A stretch of 64,000 nucleotides of DNA from Rhodopseudomonas infernalis (GTDB lineage Bacteria; Pseudomonadota; Alphaproteobacteria; Rhizobiales; Xanthobacteraceae), in the NCBI RefSeq assembly GCF_022271405.1, contig NZ_JAJNAL010000001.1:248001-312000 (forward strand). The letters are read 5' to 3'. Positions 30,650 through 39,728 of this stretch are shown here, one piece after another. The notes below the pieces were generated by a model that did not search any database, was not told the DNA's origin, and worked only from the letters and a program-made list of their open reading frames with translations. Made by a program: the position numbers and the translations under genes. The stretch's first letter is position 1. The number at the start of each line of letters is the position of its first letter.

Positions 30650-33600
30650 TCAATGAAAATCCCGCGACGGCGGCAGGATGCGGACGTCGCGGGGGTGGCG
30701 ATGGCGTTGGGCGGGGGCGTCGGGCGTGTCGCGGCGATCGCCGTTGAGGGCTTCGTAGCCGTTCTTCTCGGAGGTCAGCGGCTCGTACAGCTCGGCGCCG
30801 ACCGGTAGCGCCGGACTTACCAGGCCCTCGGACAGGCGGCCCATCTCGAAGCTGCGGTCGATCAGCCGCTCGGCCACCAGATGCACCACGCCTTCCGGGC
30901 TCGCCTGGATCCGGCCCTCGACCAGCACCAGGCGTGCGCCCATCACCTCCTTGCGAAACTTCTCCATCACCGCCGGCCACACCACGATGTTGGCGATGCC
31001 GGTTTCGTCCTCGATCGTCATGAAGATCACGCCTTTGGCGCTGCCCGGCCGCTGCCGCACCAGCACGACGCCGGCGCAGCGCGCGCGCCGGTTGTTACTG
31101 CGCGTCTCCGATACGCTGCGGCAGGTCACGACGCGTTCGGCCGTGAACAGCGGACGCAAAAACTCCAACGGATGGCCCTTCAACGACAGCCGCACCGTCT
31201 GATAATCGGCGACGACGTGCTCGGCCATCGGCATCTGCGGCAACGGCGCCGCCTGCTCGTCCTGCTGCTCGCGCGCCTGGGCGGCTTCGAACAGCGGCAG
31301 CGGCACGTCGTCCGGTAAGCGCCGCACCGCCCACAGCGCGGCGCGGCGATCGAGCCCGAGCGAGCGAAATGCGTCGGCGTCCGCCAACAGGATCAGCGCC
31401 CGCTTCGGCAGCGCGGTGATGCGCGCGAACTGTTCGAGCGAGCCGAACGGCCCCCTCGCCCGCTCCGCGACGATGCGCGCCGCCCAGTCGTCGCTCGGCG
31501 CCTCGCCAGCTTCGCGCCGCACCCGCTCCTCGTCCGGATCGGCCCAACGGAAGCCGTCGATCATCCGGAAGCCGAGCCGCACGGCGTGATACTTGCCGCA
31601 CGGCTCCTCCAGCGTGCACTGGCCTTCGCTGAACGACACGTCGACCGGCCGCACGTCGACGCGATTACTTCGCGCGTCGCCGACGATCTGTGCCGGCGCA
31701 TAAAAGCCCATCGGCTGCGAATTGAGCAGCGCGCAGCAGAACGCGTCGGGATGGAAATGCTTCATCCACGACGACACGTAGACCAGCTTGGCGAAGCTGG
31801 CGGCGTGGCTTTCCGGAAAGCCGTAGGTGCCGAACCCCTTGATCTGGTTGAAGCAGTTTTCGGCGAAGGCCTGCGGATAGCCGCGCGCCACCAGATTGCC
31901 GATCATCTTGGTTTCGAACTTGCCGATGGTGCCGACATTGCGGAACGTCGCCATGGCGCGGCGCAGCTGATTGGCCTCGTCCGGCGTGAAGTGCGCGGCC
32001 TCGATGGCGATCCGCATCGCCTGCTCCTGGAACAGCGGCACGCCGAGCGTCTTGCCGAGGATCTGCTGCAGCTCGTTCTTGTCGCCGGCCTCGCCGGACG
32101 GCTGCGGATACACCACCGGCTCCTGCTTGTTGCGACGGCGAAGATAGGGATGCACCATGTCGCCCTGGATCGGCCCCGGCCGCACGATCGCGACTTGAAT
32201 GACGAGATCGTAGAAACATTTCGGTTTGAGGCGCGGCAGCATGTTCATCTGCGCCCGGCTCTCGACCTGGAACACGCCGAGCGACTCGCCGCGCTGGAGC
32301 ATCTGATACACTTCATTGTCGTCCTCCGACTTGATGTCGGAGAGCTGGAAACGAAGGCCCTTGTGCTGCTCGATCAGGTGAAATCCCTTGCGGATGCAGG
32401 TCAGCATGCCGAGCGCCAGCACGTCGACCTTCATCATCTGCACCGCGTCGATGTCGTCCTTGTCCCACTCGATGAAGGTGCGGTCCGCCATCGCGGCATT
32501 GCCGATCGGCACATACGTATCGAGCCGGTCCTGGGTCAGCACGTAGCCGCCGACATGCTGCGACAGATGCCGCGGAAATCCGATCAGCTCGGTGGCGAGT
32601 TCGACCGCGCGGCCGATCATCGGATTGTCGGGATCGAGCCCGGCCTGCTTGACCTGCATCTCGTTCAGGCCCTTGCCCCAGCTTCCCCACACCGTATCGG
32701 CCAGCGCGGCAGTGACGTCCTCGGACAGGCCCAGCGCCTTGCCGACGTCGCGGATCGCCGAACGCGGCCGATAATGGATCACGGTGGCGACGATCGCGGC
32801 GCGATGCCGGCCGTAGCGGCGATAGATGTACTGCATCACCTCTTCGCGGCGCGAATGCTCGAAATCGACGTCGATGTCCGGCGGCTCGTTGCGCTCCTCG
32901 GAGACGAAGCGCTCGAACAGCAGGTCGATCTCGGTCGGATCGACGCAGGTGATGCCGAGCACGTAGCACACCGCCGAATTCGCCGCAGAGCCGCGGCCCT
33001 GGCACAGGATGTCCTGCGACCGCGCATAGCGGACGATGTCGTGCACGGTGAGAAAATAATGCGCGTAGCCGCGCTTGGCGATGATCGTCAACTCCTTGGC
33101 GATGGTGGCGCGCAGCCTGTCGCTGATGCCATTCGGGAAATATTCGGCGATGCCCTGCTCGGTGAGGTCCTGCAGATGCTGCTGCGCGGTCTTGCCGGGC
33201 GGTACAGGTTCGTCGGGATAGTGATATTTCAGCTCGTCGAGCGTGAAGTTGATCCTGTCCGCAAACCGCAGCGTCTCGGCGATGGCGTCGGGATCATTGC
33301 GGAACAGCCGCGCCATTTCGGCCGCCGGCTTGAGATGGCGCTCGGCATTGCCTTCGAGCCGGCGGCCGGCCTTGTCGATCGAGGTCTTTTCGCGCACGCA
33401 GGTCAGCACATCCTGCAGCGCGCGCCGCGCCGGGTGGTGATACAGCACGTCGTTGGTGGCGATGCCCGGGGCTTTCGCCGCAGCCGCAATCCGGCGCAGC
33501 CGGTCCAGCCGCCGCTTGTCGTCGCCGCGATAATACGGCGCGAGGCCGAGCCAGACGTTGGGGGTGAGCGCGGCGAGACGCGTCAGAGCGGCTGCGATCG

Positions 33601-34186
33601 GCTTGGTCTGGAATCGGTAGGACGGCATAAGGACGAGGAGGATTTGCGAGTCATCGACTTTGCGGTTTGCTCCGTCATGCCCGGGCTTGTCCCGGGCATC
33701 CACGCCTGGCGGGCGGAGTTGCAGCACAGGCGTGGATGGCCGGGACGAGCCCGGCCATGACGGCTGGGAGAGGTGGTGGATGGTGGCGGAAGGCGGACCC
33801 ATTGAAGGGGACGGTTCGTGAATGAACGCCTCCAGATCCGCAAACGTCAGGTGACACTCGCCCTTGTCGGCGCGCAGCTTGCCGGCGCTGAGCAGGCGGC
33901 AGAGACGGCCATAAGCAGCGCGGTCGGTCGGATAGGCCAGCAGATCGGGCGTGCCGTCGCTGAAGCACAGCCGGGTGCCGATCAAGAGCTTGGGCTTGTG
34001 CACCACCTCCTCGTTGTCGAGCTCGCTGTAAGCGCGGACCACGCCGGCCAGCGTATTGCGGTCGGCGATGCCGATCGCATCGAGTTCGAGCGCGCTCGCT
34101 TGATGCACATAGTCCTGCGGATGCGAGCCGCCTTCGAGGAACGAGAAGTTGGTGGTGACGCCTATCTCGGCGTAGCGCGGGCTCAT
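30650..34186 (-). CDS. dnaE2: Error-prone DNA polymerase DnaE2 (ImuC)
   Basis: 1178 residues, a C-family polymerase. It opens with a PHP domain (YAEIGVTTNFSFLEGGSHPQ; AIGIADRNTLAGVVRAY) and continues with the palm (CQGRGSAANSAVCYVLGI; PPDIDVDFEHSRREEVMQYIYRR), fingers, HhH and an OB-fold (GVVLVRQRPGSAKGVIFMTIEDETG). It performs translesion synthesis after DNA damage together with ImuA and ImuB. Homologues in memory run from LTFADL directly to a QLLVLTLPHRF-like strand, whereas here about 55 residues intervene; residues 142-172 of these are encoded by a 90-bp palindromic repeat. No frameshift results. It lies 205 bases after imuB, probably in the same SOS operon. Confidence 0.96.
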   Translation of the reverse strand: MSPRYAEIGVTTNFSFLEGGSHPQDYVHQASALELDAIGIADRNTLAGVVRAYSELDNEEVVHKPKLLIGTRLCFSDGTPDLLAYPTDRAAYGRLCRLLSAGKLRADKGECHLTFADLEAFIHEPSPSMGPPSATIHHLSQPSWPGSSRPSTPVLQLRPPGVDARDKPGHDGANRKVDDSQILLVLMPSYRFQTKPIAAALTRLAALTPNVWLGLAPYYRGDDKRRLDRLRRIAAAAKAPGIATNDVLYHHPARRALQDVLTCVREKTSIDKAGRRLEGNAERHLKPAAEMARLFRNDPDAIAETLRFADRINFTLDELKYHYPDEPVPPGKTAQQHLQDLTEQGIAEYFPNGISDRLRATIAKELTIIAKRGYAHYFLTVHDIVRYARSQDILCQGRGSAANSAVCYVLGITCVDPTEIDLLFERFVSEERNEPPDIDVDFEHSRREEVMQYIYRRYGRHRAAIVATVIHYRPRSAIRDVGKALGLSEDVTAALADTVWGSWGKGLNEMQVKQAGLDPDNPMIGRAVELATELIGFPRHLSQHVGGYVLTQDRLDTYVPIGNAAMADRTFIEWDKDDIDAVQMMKVDVLALGMLTCIRKGFHLIEQHKGLRFQLSDIKSEDDNEVYQMLQRGESLGVFQVESRAQMNMLPRLKPKCFYDLVIQVAIVRPGPIQGDMVHPYLRRRNKQEPVVYPQPSGEAGDKNELQQILGKTLGVPLFQEQAMRIAIEAAHFTPDEANQLRRAMATFRNVGTIGKFETKMIGNLVARGYPQAFAENCFNQIKGFGTYGFPESHAASFAKLVYVSSWMKHFHPDAFCCALLNSQPMGFYAPAQIVGDARSNRVDVRPVDVSFSEGQCTLEEPCGKYHAVRLGFRMIDGFRWADPDEERVRREAGEAPSDDWAARIVAERARGPFGSLEQFARITALPKRALILLADADAFRSLGLDRRAALWAVRRLPDDVPLPLFEAAQAREQQDEQAAPLPQMPMAEHVVADYQTVRLSLKGHPLEFLRPLFTAERVVTCRSVSETRSNNRRARCAGVVLVRQRPGSAKGVIFMTIEDETGIANIVVWPAVMEKFRKEVMGARLVLVEGRIQASPEGVVHLVAERLIDRSFEMGRLSEGLVSPALPVGAELYEPLTSEKNGYEALNGDRRDTPDAPAQRHRHPRDVRILPPSRDFH
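33673..33762. repeat. 90-bp palindromic element, family A, in frame inside dnaE2
   Basis: It begins CGTCATGCCCGGGC and ends GGCCATGACG, with inner arms CCACGCCTG and CAGGCGTGG. It is exactly 90 bp and adds 30 codons to dnaE2 without a stop. The same-length relatives at 38105-38194 and 58051-58140 are intergenic. Confidence 0.9.
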
Positions 34187-34391: not shown

Positions 34392-35990
34392 TCACGCGAA
34401 CAACCCATGCATGTACCAGCGCGGCTGGCCGCTGCCGTCCTGCTGGGGCATCACTTCGATCGCATAGAGGCCGTCGCGATACAGCCAGAAGCGTGCGCCG
34501 TCCTCGTCCTCGATGCGGAAGTAATCGCGGGTCAGGCCGGGCTCGGCGGCGCGCCACCATTCGGCGGCGATGCGCTCCGGGCCTTCGGCGCGGGTGACGC
34601 GGTGGGTGACGCGGCGCCAGATGAACTGTGCCGGCGGCCCGTCCGGCACGCCGGCCAGCACCTCGATCGGCTCAGGCGGCTGCAGCAGCCGCAGCGGCCG
34701 CAACGGCGGCTCGTCGGCCCGCGCCGGCCACGGCGCATCGCCGGCGTCCGGCGGACAATGCTGCACCGGCACGGCCAATGCGGCGCGCTCGGGAATATGC
34801 GTGTCCTGCGGCAAATAGCGCACCACGCGGCGCGCACCCAGCCGCGCCGTCAGCGTGTCGGCCAGCAAGGCGACATCTTCGGCCTGATGCGCCTGCGTGT
34901 CGAAGCCGCGCTGCGCCTCCGCCGTGGTCACGCTGACGCTGGCGGCGAGGCGGATCAGATCGTAGCCGAAGCCGGGATCGAGCGGATCATTGAGCGCGTC
35001 GAGCTTTTCGGCGAACAGCCGCTGGACCACCTCGACCCGCGTCACCGGCTGGCCGGTCTCGACACTGATCGACCGCACCGCGCCGTCGCTGCGGAAGAAG
35101 CTGGCGACGAGCTGCCGTGCGCCCTTGCCGCTTCGCTCCATCGCGGCGATCAGCAGCTTCGCCAGGCCCAGCAGCGTCGGCAGGATGACGTCGGTGGTGG
35201 CGACCGGCTCGGGGAAACGCTTGTCGATCAAATAGTCCGGTGCCGGCCGGCGCGGCGAGATCGGCGCATCGTCGTCGCCAGTGGCCTGGCGCAGCACCGC
35301 GACGAAGCCTTCGCCGAAACGGGCGGCGAGTTCGGACGGCTTTCGCGCCAGCACCTCGCCGATGGTCTTGAGCCCGGCGCGGCGCAGGCCGCGGACGATC
35401 GCATCATCGACGCCGAGCGCTGCCACTTGCAGCGGCGCCACCGCCCGCGCCTCCTCGCCCGGCGCGACGATGCTGCGCGGCGCACCGCGCGTCAGCGCCC
35501 GCGCCGCGACCGCGGTGCCGGCAATTGCCGCGCTGGTCTCGAAGCCCTGCCGGGTCAGCGACGTCGTCAACGACTGCATCAGTGCGGCCTCGTCGCCGAA
35601 CAGATGCGCGCAGCCGGTGATATCCAGGAACAGCCCGTCAGCGCCATCGAGCGCCACCAGCGGCGTGAAGCGATCGCACCAGTCGGCGATGGCATTCAGC
35701 AGTACCGCGTCGGCGTGCGGATCGTGATCGATCACATCGAGCGCCGGATGCATCGCCCGCACGGTGGCGAGCGGCATCCCCGGCAGCACCCCGCCTTGGC
35801 TCGCGCGCGCATCGCAGGCGACTACCACCAGCGCGTTGTCGCGTTTGGCGGCGACCACGCGCGGCGGGCGTGGCGCTTCAGCCGGCGAGCCGCTGCTCGG
35901 CGGAAGTAACTGACGTTCGAACCGATCGGTCGACAACCTCGGCAACCACAGGCCGAGGATGCGTCTGCGGTTCACGGAAGTGGCACGCAT
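34392..35990 (-). CDS. imuB: ImuB, catalytically inactive Y-family mutasome protein
   Basis: 532 residues from ATG 35990. It has the Y-family fold (LGLWLPRLSTDRF; VVVACDARASQGGVLPGMPLATVRAMHP; ADGLFLDITGCAHLFG) but lacks the acidic residues that bind metal in active DinB polymerases, as expected for ImuB. The C-terminal region (LRPLRLLQPPEPIEVLAGVP; ITHRV-like WRRVTHRVTRAEGPERIAAEWW) is the conserved ImuB tail. In Caulobacter and Mycobacterium it links DnaE2 to the sliding clamp. Its first 113 bases overlap imuA, an alphaproteobacterial arrangement I have seen before. SOS-regulated through the imuA promoter. Confidence 0.93.
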   Translation of the reverse strand: MRATSVNRRRILGLWLPRLSTDRFERQLLPPSSGSPAEAPRPPRVVAAKRDNALVVVACDARASQGGVLPGMPLATVRAMHPALDVIDHDPHADAVLLNAIADWCDRFTPLVALDGADGLFLDITGCAHLFGDEAALMQSLTTSLTRQGFETSAAIAGTAVAARALTRGAPRSIVAPGEEARAVAPLQVAALGVDDAIVRGLRRAGLKTIGEVLARKPSELAARFGEGFVAVLRQATGDDDAPISPRRPAPDYLIDKRFPEPVATTDVILPTLLGLAKLLIAAMERSGKGARQLVASFFRSDGAVRSISVETGQPVTRVEVVQRLFAEKLDALNDPLDPGFGYDLIRLAASVSVTTAEAQRGFDTQAHQAEDVALLADTLTARLGARRVVRYLPQDTHIPERAALAVPVQHCPPDAGDAPWPARADEPPLRPLRLLQPPEPIEVLAGVPDGPPAQFIWRRVTHRVTRAEGPERIAAEWWRAAEPGLTRDYFRIEDEDGARFWLYRDGLYAIEVMPQQDGSGQPRWYMHGLFA

Positions 35991-36663
35991 CACAATTCCA
36001 TTCCATGATCCAACGGCCGGTCTGGCCGTGACGATTGCGGATGAGCGATGTCTCGAGGACCGGCGCGCCCCAATCCTCACCCGGCGGCGAATGCGCCGCG
36101 CGCACCATCCAGCGCGTCTCCGCGGTGGACGCCTGCGGCGCGGCGGCGATGCGCAGCATCAGCGCGGTGACGCCGCTTTCCTGCGCCGCCAGCGTCAGTT
36201 TTCGCGAGGCGACCTGATCGAACGCGCGGGTCTCGCCCCAGAGTTCGGTGATCACCGCGCCGAGGCCGTTGCAAGCCAGCGCATCGGCGGCGGCGCGCAG
36301 CGCGCTGTCGGCATCGTGGGCCCGCACCATCACCAGGCGGCGCGGATCGAGGCCGAGTTCGGCGAAGCCCTCCATCGCCAGGTCGCCGCTCTCCCGCGCG
36401 GAAAAATCCTGGCGGATCCAGATGAGGAACCGCTGATCGGCCAGCCGCCGCGCCACGCCCGCCGCAAAGCCGGTGGCCGCCGCGCCGTGGTGGCCATCGC
36501 AAAACACCTCATGCAGGGCGCCCTGCACCAGCCCGCCTTGCAGAACGGCGTCGGCGTCGGCATGACCGAGCGGCACGCGGCGCAGCGTCTCGGCCGTCCC
36601 GCTTTCGAGCCGGTCGATCTCGCCTTTCAGGCGCGCAAGCATGCTGTGGCGCGCGCCGTCCAT
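35878..36663 (-). CDS. imuA: ImuA, SOS mutasome protein
   Basis: 261 residues from ATG 36663, behind a strong AAGGAG site. It contains a RecA/SulA-like core (VQGALHEVFCDGHHGAAATGFAAGVARRL; QRFLIWIRQDFSARESG; LVMVRAHDADSALRAAADAL) without a classical Walker A, and ends with the typical MEWNCDACHFREP and VVAEVVDR segments. ImuA is needed with ImuB and DnaE2 for damage-induced mutagenesis. An SOS box is centred about 67 bases upstream of its start. Its 3' end runs 113 bases into imuB. Confidence 0.92.
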   Translation of the reverse strand: MDGARHSMLARLKGEIDRLESGTAETLRRVPLGHADADAVLQGGLVQGALHEVFCDGHHGAAATGFAAGVARRLADQRFLIWIRQDFSARESGDLAMEGFAELGLDPRRLVMVRAHDADSALRAAADALACNGLGAVITELWGETRAFDQVASRKLTLAAQESGVTALMLRIAAAPQASTAETRWMVRAAHSPPGEDWGAPVLETSLIRNRHGQTGRWIMEWNCDACHFREPQTHPRPVVAEVVDRSVRTSVTSAEQRLAG

Positions 36664-36722
36664 GCGCCGCTCCTTTTTCGTTGCCGGTTACGAGAGTCGA
36701 TGAACCCGTTGCCGGCTCATTT

Positions 36723-36737
36723 GTTCATGATATGTTC
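36723..36737 (+). promoter_or_regulatory. Alphaproteobacterial SOS box (LexA operator)
   Basis: GTTC-ATGATAT-GTTC, an exact GTTC-N7-GTTC, lies between imuA (minus) and the radical-SAM gene (plus). A TTGCCG (36709-36714) and TATGTT (36731-36736) spaced 16 bases apart form a possible rightward promoter overlapped by the box, so LexA could block both directions. Confidence 0.85.
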
Positions 36738-36830
36738 TAATAAATCCCTGCCTCGGGAGAGAGTCAATCGGGTTCGGCCCGAGTCTCCGGAGCAAAATTT
36801 TTTCGGCAGTTGAATCAAGGAGATTCCCAT

Positions 36831-38081
36831 ATGGACGTGCAGCGCAAGCTGGCCATCCTGGCGGACGCGGCAAAGTACGACGCCTCCTGCGCCTCGAGCG
36901 GAACGGAGAAACGCGACAGCCGGGACGGCAAGGGGCTGGGTTCGACCGCGCCCGGCATGGGCATCTGCCATTCCTACGCGCCGGACGGCCGCTGCATCTC
37001 GCTCCTCAAGGTGTTGCTGACCAACGCCTGCAACTACGATTGTCTGTACTGCGTCAACCGCGCCTCGTCGAACGTTCCGCGCGCGCGCTTCACCGTCGAC
37101 GAGGTGGTGCAACTGACGCTCGATTTCTATCGCCGCAACTACATCGAAGGGCTGTTCCTCTCCTCCGGCATCATCCGTAGCGCGGACTACACCATGGAAC
37201 AGGTCGTGCAAGTTGCACAGACGTTGCGCGAAAAGCATCACTTCCGCGGCTATATTCATCTCAAGACCATTCCCGAAGCCGACGATACGCTGATCGCCAA
37301 GGCCGGCCGCTATGCCGACCGGCTCAGCATCAACATCGAGGTGCCGGAGGAGAACAGCCTGGCCAAGCTGGCGCCCGAGAAAGACGTCCGCGCCATCCGC
37401 CGCACCATGGGGCGGCTGCGGCTGCGACTGGACGAAGCCACCGAGGCCAAGGCCGAGGCGCGCAAGCAGCCTTCCCGCGCCAAGCCGCCGCGCTTCGCCC
37501 CGGCCGGCCAGAGCACGCAGATGATCATCGGTGCCGATGCCGCCACCGACCAGACCATCCTCGAAACCAGCGCCAACCTGTACGGTTCGTACAACCTCAA
37601 GCGGGTGTACTACTCGGCGTTCAGCCCGATCCCGGATTCCAGTCGCGCGCTGCCGCTACAAGCGCCGCCGCTGGTGCGCGAGCATCGGCTGTATCAGGCC
37701 GATTGGCTGATGCGATTTTACGGCTTCGGCGCGCAGGAGATTATCGATCCGTCGATCGGCATGCTGTCGCTGGAGATGGATCCGAAGCTGGCCTGGGCGC
37801 TCCGCCACCGCGACCGCTTCCCGCTCGACGTCAACCGCGCCAGCCGCGAGGAATTGCTGCGCGTCCCCGGCTTCGGCCGCAAGGCGGTGGACCGCATCAT
37901 CGATACACGGCGGCACAGCGCCATCCGCTCCGCCGACCTGGCGCGGCTGCACATCCCAAGGAACAAGGCACTACCCTTCATCGTTCTCCCCGACCACCGC
38001 CCCCCGAGCTATCTGCTCGACGGCGCGCGGCTGGCGGAGCGATTTCGACCGAAGGCGCAGCAACTGGGGTTTGGGTTTTGA
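36831..38081 (+). CDS. Radical-SAM DNA repair/modification protein (UDG-linked family)
   Basis: 416 residues from ATG 36831, eight bases after AAGGAG. The radical-SAM cluster motif CNYDCLYC places Cys67, Cys71 and Cys74. Residues 180-250 are family-specific. The C terminus has a helix-hairpin-helix (LDVNRASREELLRVPGFGRKAVDRI), a DNA-binding element. It matches the family named in TIGRFAMs as a radical SAM protein linked to a uracil-DNA-glycosylase-like protein, and that partner is the next gene. It is thought to act in DNA repair or modification, but the reaction is unknown. The SOS box upstream indicates damage induction. A palindromic repeat separates it from its partner. Confidence 0.9.
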   Translation: MDVQRKLAILADAAKYDASCASSGTEKRDSRDGKGLGSTAPGMGICHSYAPDGRCISLLKVLLTNACNYDCLYCVNRASSNVPRARFTVDEVVQLTLDFYRRNYIEGLFLSSGIIRSADYTMEQVVQVAQTLREKHHFRGYIHLKTIPEADDTLIAKAGRYADRLSINIEVPEENSLAKLAPEKDVRAIRRTMGRLRLRLDEATEAKAEARKQPSRAKPPRFAPAGQSTQMIIGADAATDQTILETSANLYGSYNLKRVYYSAFSPIPDSSRALPLQAPPLVREHRLYQADWLMRFYGFGAQEIIDPSIGMLSLEMDPKLAWALRHRDRFPLDVNRASREELLRVPGFGRKAVDRIIDTRRHSAIRSADLARLHIPRNKALPFIVLPDHRPPSYLLDGARLAERFRPKAQQLGFGF

Positions 38082-38104
38082 ACTAAGCGACGAAGAACGA
38101 CCTC

Positions 38105-38194
38105 CGTCATGCCCGGCCTTGTGTCGGGCATACACGCCTTACTGACGGAAACTCAGAAAAGGCGTGGATGCCCGGGACAAGCCCGGCCATGACG
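38105..38194. repeat. 90-bp palindromic element, family A
   Basis: Outer arms CGTCATGCCCGGCC and GGCCATGACG with inner arms ACACGCCTT and AAGGCGTGG (one mismatch). It lies between the radical-SAM gene and the UdgX-fusion gene and is exactly as long as the copy inside dnaE2. Confidence 0.9.
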
Positions 38195-38243
38195 CGGGGA
38201 GAGGTTTCACTGAACTAATCAGGGAGTCGAACTAATCGCCACC

Positions 38244-39728
38244 ATGCACCACATCCGCCTCGACAGCGACACTGATTTCGACGGCTGGCGCAAGGCGGCG
38301 CGGGAGTTGGTGATGGCGGATGTGGCGCCGGCGGATGTGACATGGACGGTGGCGGGCGACGAGCCGGAACTGTTCGATGCGCCGGGACTGGCGCCGGGGG
38401 AACAAGGTTTTGCCGAAGCAGCGGGGCCGTTCTCACAGCCCGCATCGCCCTCGCCTACGCAAACCTTCAACGTCCCCGCCCGGTTCGTCGACCTTGCCAA
38501 GACCGTGATCCTGCATCGCGATCCGCAACGCTTCGCGTATCTCTATCAATTGCTGTGGCGGCTGCGCGCCAATTCCGAGCTGATGCAAATTGCGACCGAT
38601 CCGGATGTCGCGCGCTTGCAGGCGATGGCCAAGGCGATCCGCCGCGATGAGCACAAGATGCACGCCTTCGTCCGCTTTCGCGAAATCGGCCGCGAGCCGA
38701 AGTCGCGCTACGTCGCCTGGTTCGAGCCGGAGCATCACATCGTCGAACTCGCCGCGCCGTTCTTCGCGAGGCGCTTCGCCGACATGGCCTGGTCGATCCT
38801 GACGCCCGACGTCTGCGCGCATTGGGACGGCCATGCGATCGCGATCACGCCCGGCGTGGCGAAATCAATGGCGCCGTCGGAGGATCGGCTGGAGGAAACC
38901 TGGCTCACCTACTACGCCAGCATTTTCAATCCGGCGCGGCTGAAGACCAAAGCGATGCAGGCCGAGATGCCGAAGAAATATTGGCGCAACCTGCCGGAGG
39001 CTGCGCTGATCAAACCCTTGATCGAAGACGCCGAACGCAAGACCCACGCGATGGTCGCGGCGCAGGCGACCGCGCCGAAGAAGCCGCAGCGACAGGAGCA
39101 GCCGATGGCCAAGGCGAAGCAAGGCGGCGACTCTCTTGAGGCGCTGCGCGAGCAGGCGCGCGAGTGCCGCGACTGCGATCTGTGGAAGCCGGCGACCCAG
39201 ACCGTGTTCGGCGAAGGCCCGCAACATGCCACTGTGATGCTGGTCGGCGAGCAGCCCGGCGACAAGGAAGACCTCGCCGGCAAGCCGTTCGTCGGCCCCG
39301 CCGGTCAGATGCTCGATCGCGCCTTAGCCGAAGCCGGCGTCGATCGCGGCAAGACCTACGTCACCAACGCGGTGAAGCATTTCAAATTCGTGCCGCGCGG
39401 CAAGATCCGTCTGCACCAGAAGCCGAACACGCCGGAGATCAAGGCGTGCCGGCAGTGGTACGAGCGCGAGCTCGCCACCATCAAGCCGCTGCTGGTGGTG
39501 GCGATGGGCGCCACCGCGGCGCAAAGCGTGCTCGGCAAGGTGACGCCGATCAACGCAAACCGCGGCCATCTGATCGAGCGCGACGACGGCCCGCAGGTGC
39601 TGGTGACGGTTCACCCGTCATATTTGCTCCGGCTGCCGGACGCCGACGCCAAGGAACGCGAATACGCCCGGTTCGTCGACGACCTCAGACTCGTCGCCGA
39701 GCACCTCAAGAAGGCGGAAGCGGCTTGA
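38244..39728 (+). CDS. Fusion of DUF4130 domain and UdgX-type uracil-DNA glycosylase
   Basis: 494 residues. The first 265 form the DUF4130 domain of the radical-SAM-linked family (DRLEETWLTYYASIFNPARL; MPKKYWRNLPE). After a Lys/Gln linker the glycosylase domain begins near 297: Cys308-x2-Cys311 and Cys402 are likely Fe-S ligands; motif A is GEQPGDKEDLAGKPFVGPAG (335-354); the R-loop GKIRLHQKP carries His391; motif B is HPSYLLR (457-463). UdgX enzymes use this His to form a covalent bond with the abasic site after uracil removal, and the usual KRRIH is KIRLH here. In many genomes the two parts are separate genes. It follows the radical-SAM gene and is probably SOS-induced with it. No strong ribosome site precedes ATG 38244. 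Confidence 0.92.
   Translation: MHHIRLDSDTDFDGWRKAARELVMADVAPADVTWTVAGDEPELFDAPGLAPGEQGFAEAAGPFSQPASPSPTQTFNVPARFVDLAKTVILHRDPQRFAYLYQLLWRLRANSELMQIATDPDVARLQAMAKAIRRDEHKMHAFVRFREIGREPKSRYVAWFEPEHHIVELAAPFFARRFADMAWSILTPDVCAHWDGHAIAITPGVAKSMAPSEDRLEETWLTYYASIFNPARLKTKAMQAEMPKKYWRNLPEAALIKPLIEDAERKTHAMVAAQATAPKKPQRQEQPMAKAKQGGDSLEALREQARECRDCDLWKPATQTVFGEGPQHATVMLVGEQPGDKEDLAGKPFVGPAGQMLDRALAEAGVDRGKTYVTNAVKHFKFVPRGKIRLHQKPNTPEIKACRQWYERELATIKPLLVVAMGATAAQSVLGKVTPINANRGHLIERDDGPQVLVTVHPSYLLRLPDADAKEREYARFVDDLRLVAEHLKKAEAA

Follow-up and report, generated by a model that had tools for sequence, protein, structure and literature searches.

Between imuA and a radical-SAM gene that is transcribed away from it, the DNA of Rhodopseudomonas infernalis carries a single exact LexA box, and the locus raises the question of whether this one box may control the operons on both of its sides. 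The original prediction had placed an exact GTTC-N7-GTTC between the two genes, and the match was confirmed at 36723-36737 on the + strand of the window, by which we mean the whole stretch of 64,000 nucleotides that was analysed.

The box and the genes on either side

The genes, the box and a repeat of the locus are as follows.

30650-34186, - strand: dnaE2, error-prone DNA polymerase (NF004225, 1571 bits)
34392-36080, - strand: imuB, an open frame of uncertain start with the IMS domain PF00817
35878-36663, - strand: imuA, named from NF033429 (50.9 bits, under the curated cut-off of 150) and from its place in the imuA-imuB-dnaE2 order
36723-36737, + strand: LexA (SOS) box GTTCATGATATGTTC, an exact GTTC-N7-GTTC and the proposed shared operator
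36831-38081, + strand: radical-SAM protein of 416 aa with a C-terminal HhH (rSAM_link_UDG; TIGR03916, PF04055)
38102-38194, no strand assigned: palindromic repeat of family D1, between the radical-SAM and DUF4130-UdgX genes
38244-39728, + strand: DUF4130-UdgX fusion protein (TIGR03915 at 239 bits, TIGR03914 at 354.2 bits)

The leftward genes follow the order imuA-imuB-dnaE2 on one strand and form an ImuABC mutasome cassette. The box is intergenic: imuA starts at 36663 and runs leftward, the radical-SAM ATG is at 36831 and faces rightward, and the start of the box is 60 nt off imuA and 108 nt off this ATG. In the window, two exact matches to GTTC-N7-GTTC were counted against 1.48 expected, and 38 of 100 shuffles gave at least two. 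From the same window rate, about 0.004 matches were expected in the 167-nt intergenic region, and the whole genome held 127 matches compared with 53 for the backward-read control. Since the motif is not significant by count in the window, its weight rests on its place and its conservation, and the latter, as described below, rules out a chance match as the origin of the box. The window genome encodes LexA (178 bits), and its lexA match is preceded, at a distance of about 110 nt, by an exact box, GTTCGGCATGTGTTC. A further exact box, GTTCACATTATGTTC (L097:4193-4207), is situated about 8.8 kb before the window and about 25 nt upstream of a leftward open frame of 85 aa (L097:3910-4167).

The radical-SAM gene scored 563.8 bits against the TIGR03916 cut-off of 343.5 bits, and the HhH matches of its protein were weak and under the gathering score. 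The CX3CX2C motif corresponds to C67, C71, and C74, which were invariant in an alignment of 34 sequences. A second cysteine triad, C20, C46, and C55, lies N-terminal to this motif and was likewise invariant in the 34 aligned radical-SAM relatives. The structure model of the protein had a pLDDT of 83.7, with low confidence at residues 20-56 and 409-416, and the triad falls in the longest low-confidence stretch. Our guess, by analogy with lipoyl synthase, is that the triad could bind an auxiliary iron-sulfur cluster. The nearest folds to the model, among the 50 matches listed, were the cores of HydE, AprD4, viperin, lipoyl synthase, and biotin synthase, at 9-18% identity; a profile search against solved structures gave three weak matches only, the best with an E value of 0.032.

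The UdgX part of the second rightward protein was assigned by its TIGR03914 score, which compares with a cut-off of 189.95 bits. Motif A (GEQPG), motif B (HPS), and the R-loop His are all present in the window protein, and its UdgX part aligned with the solved UdgX chain 6ajo at an E value of 1.9e-55. Among 195 sequences searched, the R-loop His was found in all 147 matches covering that position, the window's included. According to portions of PMC10359453, this His forms the covalent bond in UdgX of M. smegmatis. The DUF4130 model had a pLDDT of 86.5 and no PDB fold match at E <= 0.001, and therefore no function is proposed for DUF4130; in the DUF4130 alignment, 2 of 42 picks were left out. 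In portions of PMC3765255, DUF4130 is predicted to be an enzyme related to mutagenesis, with ties to SplB-like radical-SAM proteins and to UDGs.

Conservation of the box and loss of the partner genes

In the family to which the window genome belongs, TIGR03916 scored over its cut-off in 51 of 198 genomes. The 51 loci outside the window genome (one genome, G155, has two) and the window made up a set of 52. In 37 of them, distributed over 9 genera, imuA was divergent from and adjacent to the radical-SAM gene. The original prediction had named conservation in syntenic genomes as the check on the box; this check was run, and the box was kept in 37/37 divergent loci. The element thus has the marks of an alphaproteobacterial SOS box, namely an exact box, its conservation at orthologous promoters, and a host LexA that is itself boxed. 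In one further genome (G108, locus L096), the radical-SAM match spanned only about 32 codons and imuABC and the box were still there; neither a DUF4130 nor a UdgX match was found in the L096 stretch read.

The remaining 15 family loci were without a divergent adjacent imuA. An own box in the sense GAAC-N7-GAAC was found in 14 of them, and it began 15-40 nt before the radical-SAM start. The sole miss was L044, the second radical-SAM copy in G155 (L231:8298-10111). This copy is preceded by a cytidine/dCMP-deaminase-like gene (PF00383), and a box lies about 44 nt upstream of the deaminase open frame. The reversed control motif occurred within 350 nt in 6 of the 52 family loci, with the same sequence each time, at -16.

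When a sample of the class was searched, 25 of 385 genomes had TIGR03916 over the cut-off. A box 16-53 nt upstream, always in the GAAC sense, was present in 22 of the 23 class loci outside the family (the miss was L075), and none of these 23 loci had a divergent adjacent imuA. Solo radical-SAM loci of the family and the class together had their own box in 36 of 38 cases, starting 15-53 nt upstream. The prediction that the radical-SAM side shares LexA control is supported, and loci away from imuA lend it independent support by having an own box (14/15 in the family, 22/23 in the class).

A third, named set consisted of the best 80 of at least 594 loci; its species may overlap with those of the other two sets, and two Bosea rows, which lacked a class label, were counted as Alphaproteobacteria. 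Within these best 80, the box was found in the last 150 nt in 56 of 59 Alphaproteobacteria (base-shuffle mean, 0.20; the misses were L144, L148, and L217), in 0/18 Beta/Gammaproteobacteria and in 0/3 Verrucomicrobia, and one verrucomicrobial locus, L209, had a box farther off, at -307. The reversed control motif was found in none of the 80. In the same 80 loci, a CTGT-N8-ACAG box was present in 3/18 Beta/Gammaproteobacteria (shuffle mean, 0.03), and TGTTC-N4-GAACA, the pattern used for Verrucomicrobia, was present in 0/3 Verrucomicrobia.

Of 11 UdgX genes without a radical-SAM neighbour, a single one had a box in the 1.2 kb upstream; for one of the 11 (L218), there was little upstream DNA. Since the box is rare at such genes, it is not a generic UdgX feature, and a generic link between UdgX and the SOS response was ruled out. 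The box goes rather with the radical-SAM gene, independently of imuA, where LexA reads the motif. Based on the own boxes of the solo radical-SAM loci and the counts in the named set, the radical-SAM/UdgX operon appears to be a LexA target by itself.

The history of the rightward slot was followed in trees. The radical-SAM tree left out L069 and L094 (incomplete proteins), and the imuA trees left out one short row. The divergent rows with a single box formed one set in the radical-SAM tree, apart from the moved copy L044, with an SH-aLRT support of 99 without L023 and 88 with it. The imuA of L023 grouped with the solo imuA genes of its own genus (L129-L131), and its box is close to imuA; L023 may represent a second acquisition, or its relatives may have lost the partner.

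Of the 198 family genomes, 172 had imuA, and 40 imuA loci were sampled from these, 34 without TIGR03916 over the cut-off and 6 with TIGR03916 elsewhere; the box was present at imuA in 40/40. The 34 loci without TIGR03916 comprised 4 with DUF4130, with or without UdgX, 14 with UdgX alone, 2 with a UdgX fragment, and 14 with no partner in the stretch on that side, which was about 2.9 kb long at most and some 690 nt long in L114. The imuA tree requires 12 changes of partner presence, of which at least 7 are forced by well-supported branches, and, for the partner-bearing rows, 10 changes in whether radical-SAM is kept. In the 18 loci where a partner remains and the radical-SAM gene is gone, UdgX was present in 17 and DUF4130 in 4; judged from these loci, UdgX is the most durable part at the imuA slot. 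Elsewhere UdgX was less durable, with no UdgX match beside the radical-SAM gene in 8/23 class loci (one at a contig end) and in 16/80 named loci; the class and named loci without UdgX (the named ones again among the best 80 of at least 594) mostly retain DUF4130. The rightward slot erodes repeatedly, in many cases to UdgX alone and then to nothing, and imuA and the box stay.

Proposed promoters around the box and alternative readings

Candidate promoter elements were located on both sides of the box, with sigma-70 weights based on the E. coli consensus.

36702-36705, + strand: conserved GAAC, 17 nt before the box; an upstream promoter element or an extra LexA half-site
36709-36714, + strand: proposed -35 (TTGCCG, weak) of the radical-SAM promoter, with a 16-nt spacer, suggested by left-flank conservation
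36731-36736, + strand: proposed -10 (TATGTT) of the radical-SAM promoter, inside the box, with the best rightward score over 37 loci
36739-36744, - strand: proposed -10 (TTTATT) of the imuA promoter, adjoining the box, with the best leftward score over 37 loci
36762-36767, - strand: proposed -35 (TTGACT) of the imuA promoter, with a 17-nt spacer, suggested by TTGACTC conservation

A rightward promoter overlapped by the box had also been predicted. This held in part: the best-scoring rightward -10 falls in the box, and a strict sigma-70 scan of 36600-38300 returned no promoter on either strand.

Very probably, one LexA operator represses two overlapping back-to-back promoters, and both operons are released together after damage, as the conservation of the box and the map of the putative promoters suggest. 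On the leftward side, LexA on the box would cover the region just past the -10 of imuA (imuA-imuB-dnaE2); on the rightward side, it would cover the -10 of the radical-SAM/DUF4130-UdgX operon. As read from the map, two RNA polymerases would hardly fit at once, and LexA would block both. DNA damage would lead to LexA cleavage and then to simultaneous release of both operons, and translesion synthesis would be made alongside the uracil-trapping protein and its partner enzyme. Less surely, UdgX may cap uracil or AP sites in damaged or gapped DNA and ImuABC may fill past lesions, and the radical-SAM enzyme might process a base lesion or the UdgX adduct. In the window, LexA binding, both promoters, induction, and co-transcription of UdgX are what we infer.

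The conserved footprint exceeds the box, with gAACc..t..C.ggc.cattT before it and TAaTa.A after it over 38 divergent loci (the 37 and L096). The flanks were compared in four groups, namely 37 loci with radical-SAM, 18 with DUF4130/UdgX and no radical-SAM, 11 without a partner, and 8 outgroup solo-imuA loci; L096, L107, L109, and L132 were left out, and L132 was out of the aligned imuA set because its box overlaps the predicted imuA start. In this order of the groups, AAC at -20 was kept in 36/37, 15/18, 6/11, and 0/8, C at -11 in 36/37, 14/18, 5/11, and 4/8, and TTGACTC within 75 nt of the box in 37/37, 18/18, 11/11, and 7/8. Thus the left flank fades as the rightward genes vanish and TTGACTC persists. 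The trend gave a raw Fisher p of 4e-7 with kinship ignored; in a kinship-corrected test with 7 independent pairs, the median p was 0.5 for AAC and 0.25 for C at -11, and the direction was nearly always the expected one. In the outgroup, the best leftward -10 was elsewhere, at +16.

These flanks bear on an alternative that we consider unlikely, in which the GAAC and the left flank belong to the imuA leader, or to a second LexA half-site, and not to a radical-SAM promoter. The GAAC reads as an inverted half-site and is separated from the first GTTC by 21 nt, or about two turns, and the flank is kept in several loci without rightward genes (the 6/11 above), as this alternative would have it. Against it, the GAAC was missing in 8/8 outgroup solo-imuA loci scored. 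In the nine outgroup loci L129-L137, the distance of the box to the predicted start of imuA is -2 to 16 nt, compared with 50-176 nt in L098-L128.

Somewhat less likely still is that LexA controls imuA and the radical-SAM gene and that the inserted palindromic repeat has uncoupled DUF4130-UdgX in this genus. The distance from the radical-SAM stop to the DUF4130 match was <=27 nt in 25 of the 37 divergent loci and 96-296 nt in 12, and the window, with a gap of 162 nt (38082-38243), is among the latter. This gap, which contains the repeat copy at 38102-38194, folds to a very stable hairpin (z = -7.07). Because of the long gap and the stable hairpin, co-transcription of the radical-SAM and UdgX genes in the window is not assured. 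Nevertheless, a terminator scan between the two genes showed no terminator-like T run in the gap, and the window has the DUF4130-UdgX gene in position with an open frame, which argues against the uncoupling. The same kind of repeat occurs elsewhere in the locus: dnaE2 carries a 93-nt palindromic repeat in frame (33670-33762), 83% identical to the copy at 38102-38194, which adds a peptide in the N-terminal part. In a comparison of 8 loci, the dnaE2 insert was common to L052, L028, L029, and L096, had a shorter form in L055, and was missing from L025, L036, and L031.

It is improbable that the box serves imuA only, with an unregulated radical-SAM/UdgX promoter in the roughly 93 nt from the box to the ATG and an accidental gene order: the window box is farther from the radical-SAM ATG than the boxes of solo loci, the strict promoter scan was empty, and the kinship-corrected median p values were 0.5 and 0.25, but the sampled alphaproteobacterial radical-SAM genes are nearly always boxed, yet the divergent clade has one exact box, the best rightward -10 falls in that box, and two other divergent imuA lineages among the best 80 of at least 594 loci have separate boxes (three in L145, Methylopila capsulata, and two in L202, Henriciella pelagia).

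Meetings with the mutasome and comparison with known systems

The rightward genes were also met beside mutasome genes in other arrangements. In L074 and L076, the radical-SAM, DUF4130, and UdgX genes stand between imuB and dnaE2 on the same strand, with 1.2-2.5 kb after imuB unread. UdgX is followed by dnaE2 in L211 (Erythrobacter; among the best 80 of at least 594), and udgX precedes dnaE2 in L230. A co-directional run of udgX-imuA-imuB-dnaE2 was observed at L229:2573-8676 (G344), and no exact alphaproteobacterial box was found in 10.9 kb at L229. SRAP proteins shield AP sites, and UdgX capping can be likened to this. It is possible, though doubtful, that UdgX works in partnership with the ImuABC mutasome: the SOS response would make both at once, UdgX would covalently cap uracil or AP sites in single-stranded gaps, ImuABC would meanwhile copy past the damage, and the radical-SAM/DUF4130 proteins would remove the cap or repair the base. 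If this is true, selection for the pairing of UdgX with the mutasome would explain the repeated meetings of these genes. The low frequency of the box at UdgX genes without a radical-SAM neighbour (1/11) was counted against a general UdgX-mutasome rule.

The proposed shared SOS operator, conserved over 9 genera of one family, leads to a testable hypothesis, namely that UdgX and the radical-SAM protein are active together with translesion synthesis. Ready-made comparisons are offered by the series of natural losses, with radical-SAM lost, DUF4130 lost, and UdgX often kept. No reaction is known to have been described for the radical-SAM partner. COG4277 is presumably the same family as TIGR03916.

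In our literature search, no paper on the radical-SAM partner was found beyond PMC8565304. Portions of that paper predict that LexA controls a COG1573-COG4277 pair in Bacteroidetes; they also mention earlier reports of a UDG system of this kind under SOS control in Verrucomicrobia and Alphaproteobacteria, citing work on Caulobacter and Verrucomicrobia. Since SOS control of the UDG/COG4277 pair is in print, as far as these portions go, LexA control itself is mostly unsurprising. The window resembles this pair in having a UDG and a presumed COG4277 partner under putative LexA control; it differs in that these portions of PMC8565304 draw no tie to an operator shared with imuA, and the Bacteroidetes sites are other LexA motifs. 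Neither the shared imuA/radical-SAM-UdgX operator nor the loss series was found among the matches listed in the search, which covered few subscription papers.

UdgX was first described in Mycobacterium smegmatis; it serves as a genome tool, and its cellular role is called largely unknown (portions of PMC10359453). The window protein is like the known UdgX (structures 6ail and 6ajo) in its GEQPG, HPS, and R-loop His, but it is fused to DUF4130 and its loop reads GKIRLH in place of GKRRIH. The radical-SAM protein is like SplB, the spore photoproduct lyase, in being a radical-SAM protein linked to the SOS response, but it has no SplB family match (NCBIfam, E <= 0.001). SOS control of imuABC in Caulobacter is described in portions of PMC1839093 and PMC6120978. 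With the alphaproteobacterial LexA regulon (GTTC-N7-GTTC; imuA-imuB-dnaE2), the window has the box and the operon order in common; in contrast to that regulon, its single box lies between imuA and a second, divergent operon and seems to serve the two alike. On the comparative evidence, the box is real and conserved and probably regulatory, and the shared operator would be a new arrangement within a known regulon.
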